A stretch of 23,024 bases of DNA. Origin: Spirogloea muscicola (taxonomy: Eukaryota; Streptophyta; Zygnematophyceae; Spirogloeales; Spirogloeaceae). The DNA is taken from NCBI GenBank assembly GCA_009602725.1, contig WELB01000100.1, positions 397,512 to 420,535 on the forward strand. Direction: 5' to 3'. Position numbers and translations under genes: made by a program. Positions 1 through 21,507 of the stretch are shown here, in pieces; the stretch's first letter is position 1, and every line of letters starts with the position of its first letter. The notes beneath the pieces were generated by a model, which made no database searches, was not told the origin of the DNA, and saw only the letters and a program-made list of their open reading frames with translations.

Positions 1-154
1 TATGCGTTTGTCTATGTCGCTACAGCGTTCCCAAGCGCTTGCTTTGCATCGCCGCGCTGGTCGTGCCCTTGCAGCAGCCTCTGGCTTGCGCAGCGGGGTT
101 GCTCTTCCTCCCCTCAGCTCATCTGACTTCCTACTGCTGACACGGGGTTACTAA
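1..154 (+). mobile_element. LINE ORF C-terminal tail (5'-truncated copy)
   Basis: The frame from position 2 runs 50 codons from MRLSMSLQRSQ, through RAGRALAAASG, to the conserved end SDFLLLTRGY, with TAA at 152-154. An independent copy at 9545-9697 has the same length from MRL to stop and the same pattern (MRLSLSLQRSQ...LTRGY-stop). At least ten other partial copies of this ending lie in the window in both orientations. It reads as the last part of a retrotransposon ORF truncated on its 5' side, which here is also the window edge. The RAGRAL and LTRGY blocks have no function I can name. Confidence 0.7.
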
Positions 155-310
155 GAGCGCCCTGGCTGTCTAGCCTGTGGCTCCGTCATGAACACCTGTA
201 TGCATCTGGCTGGCTTTCACAGCCGCTCTTTTAATATCAGCAGCCGCTTCCTCTGCCATAGCTTCTTCAGGCCCCTTCGTAGCTGCTAAGCGTTTTTGGC
301 CCCGACGAAA
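155..310 (+). mobile_element. LINE 3' region following the tail at 1-154
   Basis: After the stop come short blocks also found downstream of other tail copies, notably CTTCAGGCCCCTTCGTAGCTGC (given here in two parts: CTTCAGGCCCCTT then CGTAGCTGC) near 265-290, also seen near 6260 and 14725. It leads directly into the hairpin unit starting near 311. No gene is seen. Confidence 0.5.
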
Positions 311-438
311 CTTTGTCAATTCTTTTCGGGCTGGCGTCTCACAGCCCTTGTCCCCATTGGGAGAGAAGTGGAAGTGGTAGTGGCACTTCCAATGGGGACA
401 AGGGCTGTGAGAAGCCAGCCCGAAAAGAATTGACAAAG
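311..438. repeat. 50-bp near-perfect inverted repeat of two LINE hairpin units
   Basis: Left arm 311-360 and right arm 389-438 are reverse complements at 49 of 50 positions; the one mismatch is G at about 336. The spacer is 28 nt (361-388). Each arm contains the common unit seen elsewhere: TTTGTCAATTCTTTTCGGGC, then TGGC..TCACAGCCC, then a TTGTCCCCATTGG block. Two units lie head to head, so one strand could fold into a long hairpin. It may come from insertion of one element copy next to another in opposite orientation. Confidence 0.8.
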
Positions 439-768
439 GTTCGAAGGGCCAAATGACGGAGGGGCCTAAAGCTACAATGACGGAGGGGCCTGAAGATGCT
501 ATGTCAGAACGGGTGGAGGATGGAGGATGGAAGAGAGAAGAAGGGCTCGCCCATTGAGGATAGGGGCTCGGAAATGCCAGCCCAAAGAAGATTGAACGAA
601 GTGCGAGAATGGGCCAGGGAAAGCACTAAGCAAAATAAGCACAAAAAGAAGCAGCTACGAAGCACTCAGTAACCCCTGCTAGGCAGCCTCAGGTCAGAGA
701 AGCTAAGCTCCTGCAACCGAGTCCCCTGCCCAGAGCCAGAGGCAGCACCGAGGGCTCTTCCGGCATGC
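439..768 (-). mobile_element. LINE tail and 3' region, minus orientation
   Basis: On the minus strand a degenerate tail (HAGRALGAASGSGQGTRLQE, then SDLRLPSRGY) ends with TGA at 668-666. It is followed by a 3' region with a TTCTTTGGGCTGGCATTT...GAGCCCC hairpin unit around 600-550 and CTTCAGGCCCC blocks near 500-460. The same tail and following 120 bp recur on the plus strand at 15240-15450, and the following 120 bp also at 6555-6670. This is a decayed copy. Confidence 0.65.
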
Positions 769-1455
769 AGGTGCAGAGAGAAATCTCTAAAGTCACTTTG
801 GCCGCGCTTTTCTTCCTTTCTAAGACTCTCTCAGTAGAGGGCGATGGCTGTGATTGGCCAGCCCAGAAACTAATACTGTATTATGCAACTAGAGAGAGGA
901 GTCCGCGGTGCATCGCGCATGAGAGTGGCTCTCCCAATGGGGGCAAGGGCCGTGAAAAGCCAGCCCGAAAAGAATTGACAAAGGTTCGAAGGGGCCAAAT
1001 GACGGAGGAGCCTATAAGCGCTATGTCAGAACGGGTTGAGGATGGACCACTCAGTAGCCACGGGTGAGGAGCCTCAAATCGACACACCAGCAGCCGAAAA
1101 AGAATTCCCCTGACGAAAGCCAGAGGCTGCAGCGAGAGCACAGCCAGCACGCAGATGCAAGGCGTGGGCCATGGACCGCTGGAGGGACACTGAAAGACGC
1201 ATGCGATAAACCTGGGCCCACGAGCCAGCGGCGTTGAAGCCAGCCGGCTCACCTCGCCTTAGGGACACAGCGCATCGCGCAAGCCAGGCTAGCAGGTCGA
1301 GCCACTGGGACCCAAGAGCCCCGTGCACATCCACGGCCAGGGGTACGAACTCGTCTCCAGCCGGGTGGTCAGCATGTTTGGCCGCCTTGCTGCGAGCGGC
1401 CTTCGCCGCAGCATGGCCAGCCCGCGAGGCAGAGGCCCGCAAGGCATTAAATGAT
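769..1455 (-). mobile_element. LINE ORF 3' part plus 3' region, minus orientation
   Basis: Reading down from about 1455 on the minus strand, one frame shows ADHPAGDEFVPLAVDVHGA, then a WLDLLAWLAR block, FNAAGSWAQVYRMRLS and HLRAGCALAAASGFRQG. It parallels the plus copy at 14190-14400 (ADHPVGDEFAALAIDVHGA, WLDLLQRLAR, FNAAGSLAQVFRMR). A one-base loss near 1080 shifts the frame; after correcting for it, the ending SDLRLLTRGY and TGA at 1053-1051 are restored. Below the stop lie a hairpin unit (about 990-930) and a second, weaker one (about 880-835). It is a 5'-truncated retrotransposon copy. Confidence 0.75.
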
Positions 1456-1600
1456 TTGGGGCCCAATTCAAGCCAATAAATTGTTCAGGCAAACACTAGT
1501 GCAAGAACGTAAGGCTACATGAAACGAAGCCCGATGCTAAGGTGGCGAACGTAAAAGTGTGACGTTAGTACCCACGGGTGAGCACATACAACTAACGATG
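1456..1600 (-). mobile_element. LINE tail with TTGGCTTGAATTGG-type 3' end, minus orientation
   Basis: On the minus strand the remnant LYVLTRGY-stop (stop near 1570) is followed by a different 3' sequence from the hairpin type: CACCTTAGCATCGGGCTTCG, then GCACTAGTGTTTGCCTGAAC and ATTGGCTTGAATTGG. Relatives in minus orientation lie at 5750-5890, 13505-13605 and 15640-15735, and one in plus orientation at 9697-9760. This copy abuts the ORF fragment below 1455, so two LINE pieces are joined head to tail. Confidence 0.65.
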
Positions 1601-4993: not shown

Positions 4994-5280
4994 GAGGGCG
5001 GGCGGTGCGTGACCTGGCGAGACGCCGACAGCTGACGTTGGAGTGCGGCCAGAGGGAAACCCAAGGCAAGACGCTTCCAGGAATGTGGCTCTCCCAATGG
5101 GGCTGTGTGTGAGAAGCCAGCCCGAAAAGCCAGCCCGGAATTGACAAGGTTCGAAGGGGCCAAACTACGGAGAAGAAACTGCGCGACCTCCAGAGGAGGG
5201 CGATGGCTTGGAGAGGCCAGCCCAAATGATAGAGAATGAGAATGAGCCAGGCGAGGAGTCAGGCGTTTAGAGAAAATGCG
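4994..5280 (-). mobile_element. LINE 3' hairpin units upstream of the oxidoreductase
   Basis: 5085-5165 carries a minus-oriented hairpin unit (CTCTCCCAATGGGG, GTGAGAAGCCAGCCCGAAAA, then GAATTGACAAGGTTCGAAGG), with GCCAGCCCG present twice in a row. A second unit, GGGCGATGGCTTGGAGAGGC followed by CAGCCC, lies at 5197-5225. No gene is seen, and the promoter of the minus-strand oxidoreductase must lie in or next to this repeat. Confidence 0.6.
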
Positions 5281-5520
5281 CTTCGTGAAGAGAAGAGAGA
5301 CATGGCCTTCTACCTGGGGTCTAGGCGGGGTGCCACTTTCTCAGCTGCGAGTTACTCCGACTTGCTGCTGCTCACTCGTGGTCACTAAGCTTCCATCTGC
5401 GGTAGTCTTGTGTCTAGCTGTGTGGTCATAGGCGCCTTCCGAGCTCTTTGGACCCTGTCCATTCTTTTTGGGCTGGCCTTTCCCAGCCCCTACCTTCAAT
5501 GGGAAAGCACTTTCTACCTC
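5281..5520 (+). mobile_element. LINE tail and hairpin 3' region, plus orientation
   Basis: The frame shows FSAASYSDLLLLTRGH, ending with TAA at 5386-5388; the usual Tyr is replaced by His. Downstream is a hairpin unit with a 7-bp stem, GGGCTGG 5470-5476 and CCAGCCC 5483-5489, loop CCTTTC, followed by CTACCTTCAATGGGAAAGC. Confidence 0.65.
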
Positions 5521-5739
5521 CAGTAGAGGTCAGCTTAGCAGCAGGTGATGTACATCTGTCAATGTGCTAGCCTTCGTACTTGGCCACTGAGGCCCTCCAT
5601 CAATCAATTCACAATCCAGTTCCCGATGTCTGTGACTGGCCGCCCAATTACCAAAGCTTGAAGGGGCCAGAAAAGCGCTGAAGCACACAGCAACTCAAAT
5701 GGCCAAAAGATGCTCACAAGAGAGACGGGCGCGGTGCGC
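5521..5739. other. Intergenic sequence with degraded repeat pieces
   Basis: It contains a weak minus-oriented block (GTGACTGGCCGCCCAATTACC, given as GTGACTGGCC and GCCCAATTACC) and a stretch, GAAAAGCGCTGAAGCACACA, that recurs at about 13380-13400. No gene is recognised. Confidence 0.4.
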
Positions 5740-5960
5740 ATGAAATGAAGGGTGGTCAATTCAAGCCAATGTATCAATACATTGTCCAGGCAGAAGCTAG
5801 TGCAAATAGTTGGGGCTAATGAAATGAAGCCCTATGCTAAGGTGGCTAAGGTAAAAGCGTGATAGGTACCCACCGGTGAGCAAATACAGATCCGACTGGC
5901 TCGTTCGGGGAGCGGGAGCGCTGTTACGGAAGCTGGTGGCCTGAAGGGCCGTGCACTTCC
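5740..5960 (-). mobile_element. LINE tail with TTGGCTTGAATTG-type 3' end, minus orientation
   Basis: On the minus strand SQSDLYLLTGGYLS replaces the usual SDxxxLTRGY-stop (Arg to Gly, stop lost). It is followed by CACCTTAGCATAGGGCTTC, then the CACTAG/GCTTCTGCCTGGACAATG block, TTGGCTTGAATTG and CATTTCATGCGCACCGCG. This matches the ends at 1456-1600, 13505-13605 and 15640-15735. Confidence 0.65.
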
Positions 5961-5972
5961 AAAAGGTGGCCG

Positions 5973-6700
5973 GTGGCTAGGCCTAAAAGCCAGAAAATTG
6001 GACGGCTATGGGGAAGCCCAGGCTCAAACACGGGACAATGTTTGTGGCGCGCATGGATTATCGTGTTATTTTGCGCTTTCCGGCCTTTTCAGGCCGGAAG
6101 GCGCCATGGCCCACGCCTTGCATCTGCGTGCTGGCCGCGCTCTCGTTGGGCCTCTGGCTTTCGTCAGGGGGATAGTTTTCCGGCAGCTAGTCTGTCGGAC
6201 TTGAGGCTCCTCACTCGTTACTACTGAGTGGTCCATCCTCCCCCGTTCTGACATAGCATCTTCAGGCCCCTTCGTAGCTGCCGAGCGCTTTAGGCACCCC
6301 CGTCACTTGGCCCCTTCGAACCTTTGTCAATTCATTTCGGGCTGGCTTTTCACAGCCCTTGCCCCCATTGGGAGAGCCACTTCTTCTTTCAGGCCTTGTA
6401 CAAAGCTTTGGGCTGGCCTCTCTCAGCCATTGCCTTGTATTGGAAGAGCAATTTGTTTGGGCTGACCTCGTTTTCTATGGGCGGGCAATTTCTTTCTCAC
6501 AGCCTCTTACAGCGTTGTTTCTTGTTACAGCCATTGCCTTACATCAAGAAGTGAGCTCTTCCAGCTCTTCTTGTGCTTGGTGTTCTTAGTGCTTCCCCTG
6601 GCTCCTTCTCGTCCTTTGTTCATTCTTCTTTGGGCTGGCTTTTTCGAGCCCCTATCCTCATGGGCGAGCCCTTCTTCTTCCGAAAGGGGGCGGGGGCGGT
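5973..6700 (+). mobile_element. LINE ORF tail with long hairpin-array 3' region
   Basis: The frame ending at 6227 shows SACWPRSRWASGFRQGDSFP, then AASLSDLRLLTRYY-stop. The stop is followed without a break by CTTCAGGCCCC (near 6260), GGCCCCTTCGAACCTTTGTC and at least four hairpin units: 6339-6358 (GGGCTG/CAGCCC), about 6409-6432, about 6459-6512 (weak), and 6632-6650. It is the clearest copy showing that the hairpin array belongs downstream of the LINE stop codon. Confidence 0.75.
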
Positions 6701-6840
6701 GAATTGCCAGCCCAGAAAGAATGGACAAGGTCCAAACAGCGCCAAAACCAGACAGCTATGCAAGAGACTACAGCAAAGGGGAGCTTAGTAACCCCGAGTC
6801 AGCAGCCGCATTGGCAGAGCTGTTTCCTTCCTGACTGAAA
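6701..6840 (-). mobile_element. LINE tail remnant, minus orientation
   Basis: On the minus strand the string MRLLTRGY is followed by TAA at 6787-6785, then by a GCCAGCCC-containing unit read from the other side at 6680-6720. Only the last ORF residues remain. Confidence 0.5.
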
Positions 6841-7168
6841 GGGCGGGCAAAAGCCCGCCAATACAGGTCGTGGAAGAAGCTAGTGCAATGCATTACTCTT
6901 CCCAGAAATGGATGCGGCTGCTGCTAGTAAAAGACCGGCTGTAAGAGGCCACCCAGATGCATACAGGTGTTCATGACGGAGCCACCAGGCAGTAAGGGGC
7001 GATAGCTGTGATGGCTGTGACCTCTTCCATAGAACGACAACGGCCAAGCCCGACGGCCGACCTGAACGGGACGCCCCACTCTCTATACCTCAAGGAGTGC
7101 TCGTCCCAGTCGCGACGGGGGCTGCGTAGGTTGCCCCACTCGGCACTCCGCTGCGTGGCGAAGGAGGC

Positions 7169-7208
<40 letters not shown>

Positions 7209-7632
7209 TGCCTCCGCCGCCTCNCCACCGCCGCGGCCGCCGCCGTCGCCGCCGCTGCGCTAGGCGGGGCACAAAGGACAGCGGGGGCGCCAAGGCGGGC
7301 CTGGCGGAGAGCGGCTCCTGGAATTGGGGTCGTAGGGTCATCCCTCTGCACGGCTGGGGCAGCCGGCGCGTGGGCCGGGGCGGCCGGGTCATGGCACCTC
7401 AGCTGCCGGCCAAAAGCTGAGCGGCTCTCAGCCGCTCCCTCGTCGCGCGCCACGCCGCAATGTGCCGCCGAGCCCTGCAAGGCTGCGCTCGCGACGCCGC
7501 CGTGGTGCGGTCCTGAGCTCTCTGGTCGCCAATTCGGCGAGGGTCCCGCGACAGAGCTTCGGCTGCTGTGCAATTCGACTGCTGCTACCGCCACACTCCT
7601 GCCGCCACGGGCGCCGCACTCCGATAGCTGAA
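6841..7632. other. Upstream region of PLMT, GC-rich, no gene called
   Basis: Open frames cross this region on both strands, but they are driven by a GCC trinucleotide tract and read as poly-Arg or poly-Gly. The part nearest the PLMT start is probably promoter and 5' UTR. The piece 6930-7030 resembles repeat material seen at 170-260 (ATGCATACAGGTGTTCATGACGG, split as ATGCATACAGG and TGTTCATGACGG). Confidence 0.4.
7169..7256. repeat. GCC trinucleotide tract with ambiguous base
   Basis: About thirteen uninterrupted GCC/CCG units (about 7169-7208) are followed by impure GCC-rich sequence with an N at 7224. It is a microsatellite and its length in the assembly is uncertain. Confidence 0.9.
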
Positions 7633-8501: not shown

Positions 8502-9329
8502 AGTGCTACATCCATGGTCTCTTTATTACGAGCCACCTGCACCGGGCTGCGACGTGCTGGATGCATTAGTTGTGCATCGCATTTGGGTATCTGCTAGTTG
8601 TGCTTGAGAAAGTAGAAGAAAGCTGCGGGTATCAATGCTGCAGGGCTCCTTAGTTACTGCAAAAACACCCCAATGGCTGCAGACCAGTCAAGCAGCTTCG
8701 GTTATTGATCTAGCATTATCACATCAGAATGACAAAAGACCCGTGCAGTACCTGCGAGCTGCAAGCTCACCTCAGTAGGGTGATTTCTGATGACGGTCAA
8801 TCTTTGACTGCACATCTAGTATCTATACTCTGTCTTCTATCAATGAGAACGACCCAGTATTCCTTGCCTGTTGTCCACGAGGATCCGTTCTTGGCCTCAA
8901 GATACCATCCACCACCACGTCCTCCACTTTTTGCATTGCTGCAGGACCCGCCAGACAGCCTGCAAGCTCAGCAACTTTATGATACGGATATTGCCTTGTG
9001 TGGGCCTCGACTTGTTCATAGATTTTTTACATCATTTGGCAGAAGCACAGGTACTTGAGCATCTCCAGATGCAAGAAGCTTCACATTCGTCGTCCTAATT
9101 GGACCCTCATCGCCTGTCACCTGCTTAGGAGGAAGCACGAGAAGCAGCTGGACAGCACCTCTGTGTATCTGTTGGTAGGGTAACAATTGCTCAAAGTTGT
9201 GCGTCTAGCAGACAATTGATGCAGCTTCTTAATGATCACCTTCAAGTTGCACCTGGATAGCGGGCGTATGAAGACTGCTGACTCGGGAAAAATGAAACAG
9301 CCATTTGTAGTGGCCACTTACTTTGCCGA
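8502..9329. other. 3' flank of PLMT, no recognised gene
   Basis: A 109-codon plus frame at 8729-9058 and a 75-codon frame at 8871-9098 show no recognisable motifs. They lack a matching splice context and are treated as chance. Confidence 0.4.
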
Positions 9330-9760
9330 GTGGCTGCGCTTTCCAGCCCACTTCGGACCATGTCCATTTCTTCTAGGCTGGCCTTTCACAGGACTTCAGA
9401 GCTACTCAGTATATCACAGTACTCGCCCCCGTTTGGGAGCTGCTTCTCTGATGAAGAGGCACGCCGTGCGCATGATAGGAAAGGGAGGCCAAGCCGCGCC
9501 AGTACACTGTTAGCGTCCCGCAAGCCGTCATTGCATGCTATAGAATGCGGCTATCATTGAGTCTACAGCGCTCCCAGGCACTCGCGATACACCAGCGTGC
9601 TGGTCGTGCATTAGCACAGGCTAATGGCTTCCGTGGTGGTGGTTTGGCGCCTCAGCTTAGCTTGTCAGATATGCATGTGCTCACTCGGGGATATTAGTGT
9701 CCCCCTTAGCCAGCTCATTACCCAGTTAACAGGTCATTTGTAAGGCTTGAATTGGCCTCC
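9330..9760 (+). mobile_element. LINE fragments: 3' pieces, then an intact ORF tail and 3' end
   Basis: 9355-9395 holds a weak hairpin unit (CTAGGCTGGCCTTTCACAGG) and 9465-9510 a piece of the alternative 3' end. At 9545 begins a clean 50-codon tail, MRLSLSLQRSQALAIHQRAG to SDMHVLTRGY, stop TAG 9695-9697. It is followed by TGTCCCCCTTAGCCAGCTC, AACAGGTCATTTGTAAGGC and TTGAATTGGCCTCC, ending near 9760. The 3' end matches the minus-strand copy at 15640-15735 closely. Confidence 0.7.
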
Positions 9761-13129: not shown

Positions 13130-13610
13130 GTTCAGTACGTTGGGCTGGCCTCTCACAGCCCTCGCCACCTTCAAATGAGCTTACTTTCCAATTTCTCACA
13201 GCCTTTGCCTTACCTTGACAGAGCTATTTCTGTCTTTGGAGACGAAACAGCTCTTCCAATATAAGGCAGTGGCTGTGAAAGTCCAGCCCAAAGGAGTGTA
13301 CAGGGCCGGTAGAGACTAAGTAGAGGGCGATGGCTGTGATTGGCCAGCCCAGAAAAAGGGGGATGAGAAAGGTAAGGGGTCAGAAAAAGCGCTGAAGCAC
13401 ACAGCGACTCATGTGGCCACTGAGTCTCTGGGCGGACTTCGACGAGGAATAACAAAGTGTCGATGCGGGGATAGGAAGATAGAGAGAAGGCCCGCAGTGC
13501 ACACGAAATGAAAGGGAGGCCAATTCAAGCCAATACATTGTTCATGCAGAGTCTAGTGCAAACTAAACAAGGCAACATGATACGGAGCCTTATGCTAAGG
13601 TGCCTCCTCC
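13130..13610 (-). mobile_element. Mosaic of LINE 3' pieces, mostly minus orientation
   Basis: A plus-oriented hairpin unit (TTGGGCTGGCCTCTCACAGC, 13140-13159) is followed by minus-oriented ones at 13265-13295 and 13318-13355. Then comes the alternative 3' end (GAGGCCAATTCAAGCCAATA, TTCATGCAGAGTCTAGTGCA, CTTATGCTAAGGTG) at 13517-13602. These are fragments of several insertions. Confidence 0.6.
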
Positions 13611-14545
13611 CCTGCGGCGGCGGCGTGGTTATCAGCGCTCCCACTCCACGCGGCCCTCACCATGCCCGATGAGGTCTTCAGGACTGGCTCTTGGGCCTCC
13701 TCCCTCCCTGCCTCGTGGGCGTCACGCAGTGCGAGTGCGGTGCCCGTCACGCTGACCCTGCGGAGCTGGCTGCGTATATGCTCCTCTGCGCACACGGGGG
13801 CGAGTGGACCGCTTCCCACGATCTCCTGCGAGACGGTATGCAGGGGGTGTTTACGGAGGCTGGCTTCAAGGTGGCTGTGGAGAACTCCTCCATTATAAGG
13901 CCCCTCCATCACTTGGCCCCTTCGAACCTTTGTCAATTCTTTTTCGGGCTGGCTTTTCACAGCCCTTGCCCCCATTGGGAGTGCCACTTTCTGTTCCATA
14001 ATGCCCATCCAGCTGGGCGCGGACGGCCAGCCCCATACACGACGCGCCGACCTGGTCGCCATCCCGCCCGGCGGCGGTCCCTGCATAATTGCCGATGTGG
14101 TGACAATTGACTGCATCGACTCCTCCAATCCCACCAGATCGGCGTCGTTTGAAGGGCACGCGGTCGGCCTAGCGGCCCGGGGCAAGGAGCGAGAATATGC
14201 TGATCACCCGGTTGGGGATGAATTCGCGGCCCTGGCGATAGATGTACACGGGGCTTTCGGCAGCCGCTGGCTGGATCTCCTTCAGCGGCTTGCCCGCCAG
14301 GCCATTGACCGGCCGGGTCTGCCAGGGGCGATGCCCGGCTTCAACGCCGCCGGTTCGCTCGCCCAAGTCTTCCGCATGCGCCAGCGGTATCGTTTCAACG
14401 CTCCCTTGCCCGCGCCGTCCACACGCGAGCAGGGATGCTATGGCAACCGCCTCTGGGTCTCGGCGGAGTGCCTCTTTCCCTGCAGCGAGCTACTCAGACC
14501 TGATGTTGCTCACGCGTGGGTACTTTCCCTCTGCATCGTCTATGT
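13611..14545 (+). mobile_element. Longest LINE ORF fragment with RLE-like C-terminal domain (decayed)
   Basis: Read across at least three frames: WLSALPLHAALTMPDEVF; then LGLLPPCLVGVTQCECGA followed by AYMLLCAHGG, SHDLLRDGMQGVFTEAGFKV and AVENSS; then, after an inserted repeat, RRADLVAIPPGGGPCIIADV, EYADHPVGDEFAALAIDVHG, WLDLLQRLAR, FNAAGSLAQVFRMRQRY; and, after a frameshift, ATASGSRRSASFPAASYSDL and MLLTRGY without a stop. The layout (an alpha-helical lead, CxC...C cluster, xHDxxRD, Glu, xAD-X14-D) follows the C-terminal domain of LINEs with a restriction-enzyme-like endonuclease. His of the Cys/His cluster appears as Tyr and Pro of the PD motif as Ala, so it is surely inactive. The domain assignment is by pattern only. 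Confidence 0.7.
13892..13998 (+). repeat. Hairpin unit inserted in the LINE ORF
   Basis: A roughly 100-bp block (GGCCCCTTCGAACCTTTGTC, TTTTTCGGGCTGGCTTTTCA then CAGCCC, GCCCCCATTGGGAGTGCC) interrupts the ORF between AVENSS and the MPIQLGADGQPHTRRADLV segment (in parts MPIQLGADGQ and PHTRRADLV). Flanks read CTCCATTATAAGG on the left and TTCCATAATGCCC on the right, which might be an imperfect 7-bp target duplication. The block also changes frame. Confidence 0.6.
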
Positions 14546-15745
14546 GTTTTGCAGTCTTTTGTAGTGTAGTCCTTTCTCCGGCTCCTCTTTCTTTGGCTTT
14601 GGACATTGTCCATTCTTTTTAGGGCTGGCTTTGCCAGCCCCTCTTCTCTATAGGCGAGCACTTTCTATGAGAAGGTGCTTAAGGCAATAGGGGGACATTA
14701 GTACCCAGTCATCCTCCCCAGCATCTTCAGGCCCCTTCGTAGCTGCTTAGCGCTTTTTAGAAGAAGAAGTGGCTCTCCCAATGGGGGCAAGGGCTGTGAG
14801 AAGCCAGCCCGAAAAGAATTGACAAGGTTCGAAGGGGCCAAACTACGCTAAGCAGCGACTGCGGGAGCCTGAAGAAGGCAAGCGCGGCCAGATTAACTGG
14901 TGGCTGGGAGAGGCCAGCCCAAAAGAATGGACAAGGTCTGAAGGAGTCGGAGTGCTAAGGACGGAGACAGCAAGAAGAAGTGGCTCTCCCAATGGGGGCA
15001 AGGGCTGTGAGAAGCCAGCCCGAAAACAGTTGACAAGGTTCGAAGGGGCCAAACTACGAGCTAAGCAGCGACTGCGGGGCCTGAAGAGGCTACGGCAGAA
15101 CGGGGGAGGATGGACCACTTAGTAGTTACGAGTGAGGAGCCTCACATCCGCCTGTGGAATGAGCGGGCTTTTTAGGCCCCTCCGTCATTTGGCCCCTTCG
15201 AACCTTTGTCAACTCTTTTCGGGCTGGCGATTCTTTGGCTCTGGCTCTCTGGCTCTGGCCAGGGGACCCGCTTCCAGGAACCAAGTCTCTCTGACCTGAG
15301 GCTGCTTAGCAGGGGTTACTGAGCGCTTCGTAGCTGCTTCGTTTCTATTTTTGTGCTTGTTGTTCTTCGTACTTCCCCTGGCCCCTTCTCGTCCTTTGTT
15401 CATTCTTCTTTGGGCTGGCTTTCTCCAGCCCCTATCCTCAATGGGCGAGCCCCTTCACTTTTCACAGCCCTTGCCCCCATTGGGAGTGCCACTTCTCACG
15501 GGTGAGCACAAAGTGACAAGCTAACTTGTGGAGATTAGGCGCGCGGTGCGCATGATTTAAAAAATCCTATCTTCCTCAATGGGCGAGCCCTTTCTTTCTG
15601 TCTTCCCCAAGGGAGAAGGCGCGCGGTGCGCATGAAACTGAAATGGAGGCCAATTCTAGCCTTACAAATGTCCTGTTAACTAGGTAATGAGCTAGCTAAG
15701 GGGGACACGAATATCCCCGAGTGAGCACATGCATCTCTGACATGA
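14546..15745. mobile_element. Mosaic of LINE 3' hairpin units and tails in both orientations
   Basis: Plus units: 14605-14665, with a perfect 8-bp stem GGGCTGGC (14622-14629) and GCCAGCCC (14633-14640); 15170-15235 (truncated); 15398-15450 (7-bp stem 15412-15418 with 15425-15431); and fragments near 15465-15495 and 15570-15595. Minus units: 14770-14842, 14895-14935, 14981-15055. An ORF tail on the plus strand (SGSGQGTRFQEPSLSDLRLL then SRGY, stop TGA 15320-15322) and one on the minus strand at 15745-15705 (SEMHVLTRGYSC, stop lost) with its alternative 3' end at 15640-15705 complete the block. Confidence 0.65.
14761..15083 (-). repeat. Direct repeat of about 110 bp, offset 211-213 bp
   Basis: AAGAAGAAGTGGCTCTCCCA followed by ATGGGGGCAAGGGCTGTGAG and on to CTAAGCAGCGACTGCGGG begins at 14761 and again at 14972. 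Differences are few (for example GAATTGAC versus CAGTTGAC). Both are minus-oriented LINE hairpin units, so the array may have grown by local duplication. Confidence 0.8.
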
Positions 15746-16063
15746 TATGCCCCAAGCACTTTCTTCTTTCTATCTTGATGCTCTGACGAGAAGAAGCGGA
15801 CGGCAGACAACGGCGTTCATGGGGGTTCGCTCGTCGGGGGGGGGCATCGCGACGGCTTTGCAACAGCCCCCGGAAAAAGTGATTTCTTGTTAACCATCGC
15901 TGCCCGGGAGGTCCGCTGCGCCGGCCTCGCCGGCCCCCTCGCACGCCCGCCGCCTCCANGGGGGGGGGGCGGGCATGCTCGTCGCGAGCCCGCTCATCTC
16001 GAGCCCCTGCGTGGGTGGCACCTTCCCGCACACGAGCTGGCTGCCACCATCTCACTGTAGACG
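15746..16063. other. Upstream region of the mannosidase gene
   Basis: It runs from the LINE block to the mannosidase ATG and becomes GC-rich after 15890. It contains an N at 15959 next to a poly-G run. The promoter and 5' UTR presumably lie here; no defined element is seen. Confidence 0.4.

Positions 16064-21507
<5,444 letters not shown>

Follow-up and report, generated by a model that had tools for sequence, protein, structure and literature searches.

The stretch of DNA analysed here, referred to as the window, comprises 23,024 bases with 53.9% G+C. It contains eukaryotic gene fragments that score above the Pfam cut-offs, namely those of a phospholipid methyltransferase, a zinc-binding dehydrogenase and a family 47 glycosyl hydrolase, and because of these genes we assign the window to a eukaryote; as a guess, the host may be a green alga. 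A CCG triplet repeat of about 29 units (7169-7255), which contains an N, lies about 0.9 kb upstream of the phospholipid methyltransferase fragment, and the segments 9047-9144 and 21049-21145 form an inverted repeat pair (100-nt alignment, 73% identity) that is free of the hairpin unit described below. Parts of a LINE-like element make up the features listed in Table 1. Only 3′ parts of this element were recognised, and no reverse transcriptase was found within the window; the label 'LINE' therefore rests on the structure of the copies and on the motifs at their ORF ends.

The hairpin unit GGGCTG-N(2-12)-CAGCCC occurs 11 times in exact form in the window, whereas 100 dinucleotide shuffles gave 0.05 occurrences on average and 2 at most. 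An iterated profile started from 15 seeds gave 26 matches at E<0.01 on both strands of the window; these include one split unit, counted twice through its halves at 15191 and 15459, and one degenerate match (5668). The original prediction had counted about fifteen units; the units are real, but that number is too low. The individual hairpins that it had placed were all recovered, i.e. 14622-14640 (8 bp, loop TTT), 5470-5489 and 15412-15431 (7 bp each) and 6339-6358 (6 bp). When matches up to E 0.2 are included, 27 have a recognisable 5′ arm, of which 16 are located between 0.2 and 7.0 kb, 10 between 13.1 and 15.5 kb and one at 9.4 kb. A covariance model built from 25 of these 27 matches recovered all 25, together with the left half of the split unit and a weak chance match at 16406. 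For counting stem pairs we used a hand-anchored set of 25 units, without the degenerate match and the split unit but with both units of family 6, scored by the profile at only E 0.12 and 0.065.

The 25 hand-anchored units and the split unit were sorted by eye into six subfamilies (families 1 to 6). A CC(A/T)-type block had been thought common to all units. This CAATGGG block varies by subfamily, reading CCCCATTGGG in family 1 and CTCAATGGG or TTCAATGGG in most of families 2 and 3, but it was not seen in the window units of families 5 and 6. One family 1 unit (5085-5163) has a partly duplicated 5′ arm, with GGGCTGGC present twice, and a longer loop. Rfam yielded no match at the gathering score. 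No relatives were detected in viral contigs, prokaryote genomes, phages or plasmids, a result of little weight since eukaryote genomes lie outside these collections. Likewise, a literature search found no work joining Trebouxiophyceae, a non-LTR retrotransposon and a hairpin, although the element may be described under another name.

Table 1. LINE-like copies and hairpin units in the window; numbers in brackets after 'hairpin' or 'unit' give the hairpin position.
Feature	Position	Strand	Evidence
Family 6 ORF end (LLTRGY stop) and hairpin (208)	2-251	+	173-251 at 89% to 6910-6990 minus; hairpin 74 nt from LLTRGY start; profile only E 0.12
Family 1 copy, hairpin 328-347, tail to tail with the 379-524 copy	252-366	+	Inverted repeat, self-comparison
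Family 1 copy truncated just after the stop, hairpin (421)	379-524	-	151 nt at 87% to 6232-6381
Family 2 copy: ORF-end region, 3′ UTR, hairpin (582)	530-741	-	219 nt at 83% to 15247-15463; ORF end missed by motif search
Family 1 copy: ORF C-terminal region in two frames, 3′ UTR, hairpin (969)	924-1484	-	Self-comparison, ORF-end search
Family 5 unit (5223) then family 1 unit (5123)	5085-5229	-	Profile, self-comparison, neighbour analysis
Family 3 ORF end (LLTRGH stop), 3′ UTR, hairpin 5470-5489, 3′ end	5317-5516	+	219-nt alignment, 70%, to 14455-14667; hairpin 102 nt from LLTRGH start
Family 1 copy: ORF C-terminal end (LLTRYY stop 6207-6227), 3′ UTR, hairpin 6339-6358, 3′ end CCACTTCTTCTT	6104-6391	+	280 nt at 81% to 924-1174 minus; hairpin 132 nt from first base of LLTRYY
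Family 4 unit, hairpin from 6410, directly behind family 1 tail	6378-6454	+	Profile E 1.3e-13; 63 nt at 83% complementary to 13245-13307; subfamily differs from those of neighbours
Family 2 5′-truncated copy: 3′ UTR and hairpin (6632)	6565-6671	+	108 nt at 92% to 15345-15452, itself behind its own ORF stop
Family 3 ORF end and hairpin (6713), tail to tail with family 2 copy	6675-6810	-	LLTRGY stop at 6805, hairpin 92 nt on; 74% to 5363-5490
Family 5 unit (13350) then family 4 unit (13289)	13248-13382	-	Profile, neighbour analysis
LINE-like ORF C-terminal fragment, two frames, possible restriction-like endonuclease region	13673-14561	+	RADLV and KEREY motifs; no Pfam or PDB match
Short 5′-truncated family 1 copy (hairpin 13946-13965) inside LINE ORF fragment	13893-13992	+	92-93% to 921-1017 minus and 6292-6382; ORF frame differs before and after
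Family 3 ORF end (LTRGYF, without stop codon), 3′ UTR, 8-bp hairpin 14622-14640	14455-14667	+	Motif, self-comparison, ORF-end search
Family 1 copy (1b), truncated, hairpin (14810)	14761-14877	-	117 nt at 96% to 14972-15087
Family 3 unit (14920) between both family 1b copies	14882-14952	-	Profile E 1.6e-11
Family 1 copy (1b): ORF end (LLTRNY stop), 3′ UTR, hairpin (15021)	14972-15150	-	Self-comparison, ORF-end search
Family 2 fragment in family 1 hairpin loop: ORF end LSRGY stop, 3′ UTR, hairpin 15412-15431	15229-15458	+	Joined flanks 15165-15228 and 15459-15500 match five family 1 units at 94-96%, no indel at junction

The placement of the hairpin in the 3′ region of a LINE-like element, as proposed originally, is borne out both by the ORF ends and by the shared ends of matches between copies, which locate it in the 3′ UTR and near the 3′ end. 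Behind eight of the 11 recognised ORF ends a hairpin begins 53-111 nt past the stop codon, the first hairpin being counted and, in the copy at 14506, which lacks a stop codon, the distance being taken from the place where the stop would fall. The distance from the first base of the LLTRGY-like motif to the hairpin is 74, 92, 102, 102, 107, 116, 118 and 132 nt in these eight cases. An initial translation search for LTRGY- or LTRYY-like endings, carried out with the hairpin disregarded, had found nine ORF ends, namely six of the eight with a hairpin and all three without. The 11 ends result from a wider motif that was written after reading the sequence and gave 14 hits, three of which (9275, 15673 and 15893) were discarded by context; the hit at 9275 nevertheless has a hairpin 100 nt behind it. 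The hairpin-linked ends at 15139 and 15305 stem from this wider motif, composed after inspecting the sequence upstream of those hairpins.

The three ORF ends without a unit (1582 minus, 9680 plus and 15725 minus) are followed by another 3′ UTR. Such unit-less LINE-like 3′ UTR types lie at 1445-1590, 5720-5888 and 13480-13605 on the minus strand, at 9655-9760 on the plus strand and at 15645-15750 on the minus strand, partly behind the same LTRGY ending. One branch of them has a GGGCT...AGCCC-like helix in three copies, with one pair appearing as G-C, G-U and A-U; this helix is not beyond chance, as 316 of 500 shuffles equal it.

Self-comparison of the window revealed matches that span the ORF end and the 3′ UTR, for instance a 280-nt match at 81% between 924-1174 minus and 6104-6381 and a 219-nt match at 83% between 530-741 minus and 15247-15463. 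Measured from the hairpin start in 152 comparisons, matches between copies extend in the 3′ direction by a median of 41 nt (middle half 34-44 nt) and in the 5′ direction by a median of 30 nt (middle half 16-42 nt, maximum 205 nt), a contrast that is clear mainly within families, since local alignments also end where families diverge. Six of the 152 3′ extensions reach 99-180 nt and belong to copies standing tail to tail. As judged by eye, several family 1 and 2 copies, though not all, end in CTT-rich sequence. A common 3′ end combined with a variable 5′ extent is the pattern of 5′-truncated LINE copies, and it is clearest within families.

Facing copies could also suggest an origin of the units as terminal inverted repeats, belonging to a MITE or a foldback DNA transposon. 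Two facing family 1 tails, 291-363 and 386-458, indeed form a 73-nt inverted repeat (88% complementary, 22-nt spacer), and there are four tail-to-tail pairs (328/421, 6632/6713, 13142/13289 and 14622/14810), two of them within one subfamily. Yet the spacing of the facing hairpins varies (93, 81, 147 and 188 nt), two of the four pairs join different subfamilies, and the units run on upstream, to a varying extent, into an ORF end, so that we regard this origin as highly improbable. It is also quite unlikely that some of the short units are SINEs borrowing the 3′ tail of a LINE. ORF sequence is missing from many units, and PMC3747384 lists Chlamydomonas SINEs with a shared LINE 3′ tail. On the other hand, ARAGORN identified no tRNA gene in the window, a search within whose reach degenerate or other heads do not fall, and the sequence upstream of short units in families 1 to 3 matches LINE 3′ UTRs; family 5 has no ORF-linked copy here, so its units might still be of this kind.

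The original prediction regarded the copy at 5973-6700 as one element whose stop codon is directly followed by hairpins in series, several of them belonging to each element. A hairpin does lie behind the stop, albeit not directly, as the one at 6339 begins 111 nt after it, and the later units belong to other subfamilies. An element of this kind, with a multi-hairpin 3′ UTR offering repeated binding sites, would account for same-strand series behind ORF ends, such as the hairpins at 6339, 6410 and 6632 after the stop at 6227. Against it, the nearest same-strand neighbour within 250 nt belongs to another subfamily in all 11 pairs among the 26 assigned units, and the subfamily orders of these 11 ordered pairs are all different, none recurring. 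This count left out weak partial matches, of which 13194 (E 0.013) and 6522 (E 0.16) look like family 4 and stand behind family 4 units; they could be same-family neighbours and, in that case, second units of one element. Within the 5973-6700 series, the family 1 unit at 6339 shares 96% identity with the unit at 14810, and family 1 and family 2 are only 74% identical to each other (6308-6391 with 15379-15464), compared with 96% and 92% to other loci. Moreover, the family 2 unit of the series has an ORF-adjacent 3′ UTR of its own elsewhere. Considering also the three of 11 ORF ends that lack a unit, the claim of several copies per element is not supported, and a true multi-hairpin 3′ UTR appears unlikely. 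It is unlikely that the hairpin units form a modular array belonging to a single element; what looks like an array can best be explained by broken copies that inserted beside and into each other. One clear empty site was found (15228/15459), where a family 2 fragment sits in a family 1 hairpin loop with a target duplication of 0-1 nt.

It had further been argued that pairing is preserved while the loops drift. An alignment of 10 representatives of the six families gave mean column identities of 0.97 for the 5′ arm, 0.80 for the 3′ arm, 0.56 for the loop, 0.34 upstream and 0.41 downstream, values in which arm conservation is inflated by anchoring on the arms and by ungapped flanks. The arms are mostly complementary, as stated, in that 135 of 150 cells (six pairs in the 25 hand-anchored units) pair; however, all six pairs are intact in 13 of the 25 units and at least one is broken in the other 12. 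Eighteen of the 150 cells deviate from the consensus, and three of these keep the pair whereas 15 break it. Counted as types of change, 2 of 10 keep pairing, compared with 6 of 36 for a random single substitution.

Covariation was likewise not beyond chance. With a plain alignment of 25 matches (all 27 except 6427 and 15189), in which MAFFT misplaced the two rows 14590 and 5085, 125 of 500 shuffles reach the observed score for a six- or seven-pair stem. With a model-fitted alignment of 27 rows, which includes the spurious match at 16406 and the split unit, 85 of 500 do so. The claim of preserved pairing is not supported by the arm changes, most of which break a pair, or by these shuffles, and the outcome named beforehand as refuting, no excess of compensatory changes in the stems, was observed within the window, although with so few changes in the stems this test is weak. 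RNAalifold applied to the plain, uncorrected alignment predicted zero pairs.

Folding of single units (15 of the 25) gave z-scores from +0.75 to -2.89, two of them at or below -2, and the canonical stem is present in the best structure of nine of the 15 and missing in six. The paired share peaks in the proposed register, with 77.7% compared with at most 64.0% when the arms are slid, the register being derived from these same sequences. Some single-sequence folds contained an outer helix between upstream TTTGTCAAT and downstream ATTGGGAGAG. We rejected this candidate, as the downstream block of the same unit is no better a partner for an upstream block than downstream blocks taken from other units (permutation shares 0.50 and 0.60 among units, 0.13 and 0.30 among families; 24 of 25 units, 5123 dropped).

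These data bear on the alternative that the conservation of GGGCTGGC and CAGCC reflects a role as a protein-binding or DNA motif, their inverted symmetry being incidental. It would agree with the arm changes, which mostly break pairs (15 of 18 cells, 8 of 10 types) about as random substitutions do, and with the absence of covariation in the shuffle tests. Nonetheless, a linear motif is unlikely to yield, as a by-product, an inverted repeat of 6-8 bp around a variable loop, all six pairs are formed in 13 of the 25 units, and the pairing share is highest in the proposed register. We therefore consider a purely linear motif somewhat unlikely. Pairing, as predicted from the unit sequences, is possible in many units, and its conservation is so far inseparable from that of the sequence.

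As to the identity of the element, the C-terminal ORF fragment has no Pfam or PDB match, and its predicted structure is poor (mean pLDDT 43). KEREY and KAAKH, in two copies, resemble the KX2KY catalytic motif, which a passage of PMC5678591 gives as that of LINEs with a restriction-like endonuclease. The spacing of CECGARHADPAELAAYMLLC differs from that of the CX2-3CX7-8HX4C zinc knuckle, which precedes the endonuclease in such LINEs, in a single degenerate copy that is the only one to reach this far and, being broken, need not be representative of the family. From these motifs, the ORF may possibly encode a putative endonuclease of the restriction-like type. LINEs of this type are often target-specific, with targets that include microsatellites and transposons, according to the relevant part of PMC4640811, and such specificity would suit a self-targeting element.

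Taken together, we propose, with a probability of roughly 0.6, that the window contains about six subfamilies of one LINE-like element, each with one 3′ recognition hairpin, and that the series were made by nested insertion. The units would be the 3′ ends of these subfamilies, with a single GGGCTG...CAGCCC hairpin in each 3′ UTR, and the element would terminate about 40-50 nt beyond the hairpin start in CTT-rich sequence. Its own reverse transcriptase would recognise the RNA of the 3′ tail and start target-primed reverse transcription there; because of this presumed recognition, even short 5′-truncated copies would retain the hairpin. New copies would often insert into or beside old ones, in either orientation, and nested insertion rather than a multi-hairpin element would yield the series at 5973-6700. 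By analogy, a role of the hairpin as the site bound by the reverse transcriptase, already suggested in the original prediction, is plausible as a candidate role: the arms are the best conserved part between diverged subfamilies, as would be expected of a recognition tail, but no selection for pairing was seen. One may go further and suppose that the hairpin serves twice, as an RNA tag for the reverse transcriptase and as a DNA landing site, so that the element homes to its own older loops and tails. The family 2 insertion in the family 1 loop (15228/15459, 0-1 nt duplication) and the frequent neighbours of different subfamily are compatible with such homing, to which we assign little probability.

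Several known systems resemble parts of this picture. Proteins of stringent LINEs bind an RNA stem-loop located in the 3′ tail, and retrotransposition requires this tail (PMC4176376). Like the tails of UnaL2, ZfL2-1 and ZfL2-2, the element has a potential stem-loop in its 3′ tail, here within about 50 nt of the common 3′ end, although six of 15 units fold best otherwise. By this comparison, a single 3′-terminal hairpin kept in the shortest copies would fit a stringent-type LINE. In contrast to these elements, the arms are nearly invariant between subfamilies, the role is predicted from sequence alone, and the ORF end may hint at another LINE group. An L1 lineage of maize and sorghum also has a conserved 3′-end hairpin (PMC3747384, section 4.3). 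There the last 45-50 nt are conserved with the hairpin while the rest of the element diverges, which is the likeness, but that section reports compensatory changes in the stem, whereas none beyond chance were found here.

The nested-copy pattern is already known from algae. In Chlorella and Coccomyxa, nested insertion of Zepp into existing copies gives tandem arrays mostly of 3′ ends, according to the passages on this element in PMC8226300 and PMC3446292. Zepp is listed as an L1-clade element with (A)n repeats, unlike the CTT-rich end and hairpin seen here, and the clusters in the window are short and interspersed with gene fragments. The RandI/Dualen elements of Chlamydomonas are likewise algal LINEs; they have simple 3′ repeats and a 3′ tail in common with SINEs, their SINEX partners, and one SINE has (CTTT)n; as the present element is known without its reverse transcriptase, this likeness is not a clade placement.

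The analysis adds a LINE-like group whose 3′ tail is symmetric and well conserved and which has several diverged subfamilies within a single genome. This natural series of subfamilies is useful for studying which features of its template a LINE reverse transcriptase recognises. The analysis also calls for caution, because hairpins in series after the stop codon of a LINE may have arisen by nested insertion and need not represent a modular UTR.
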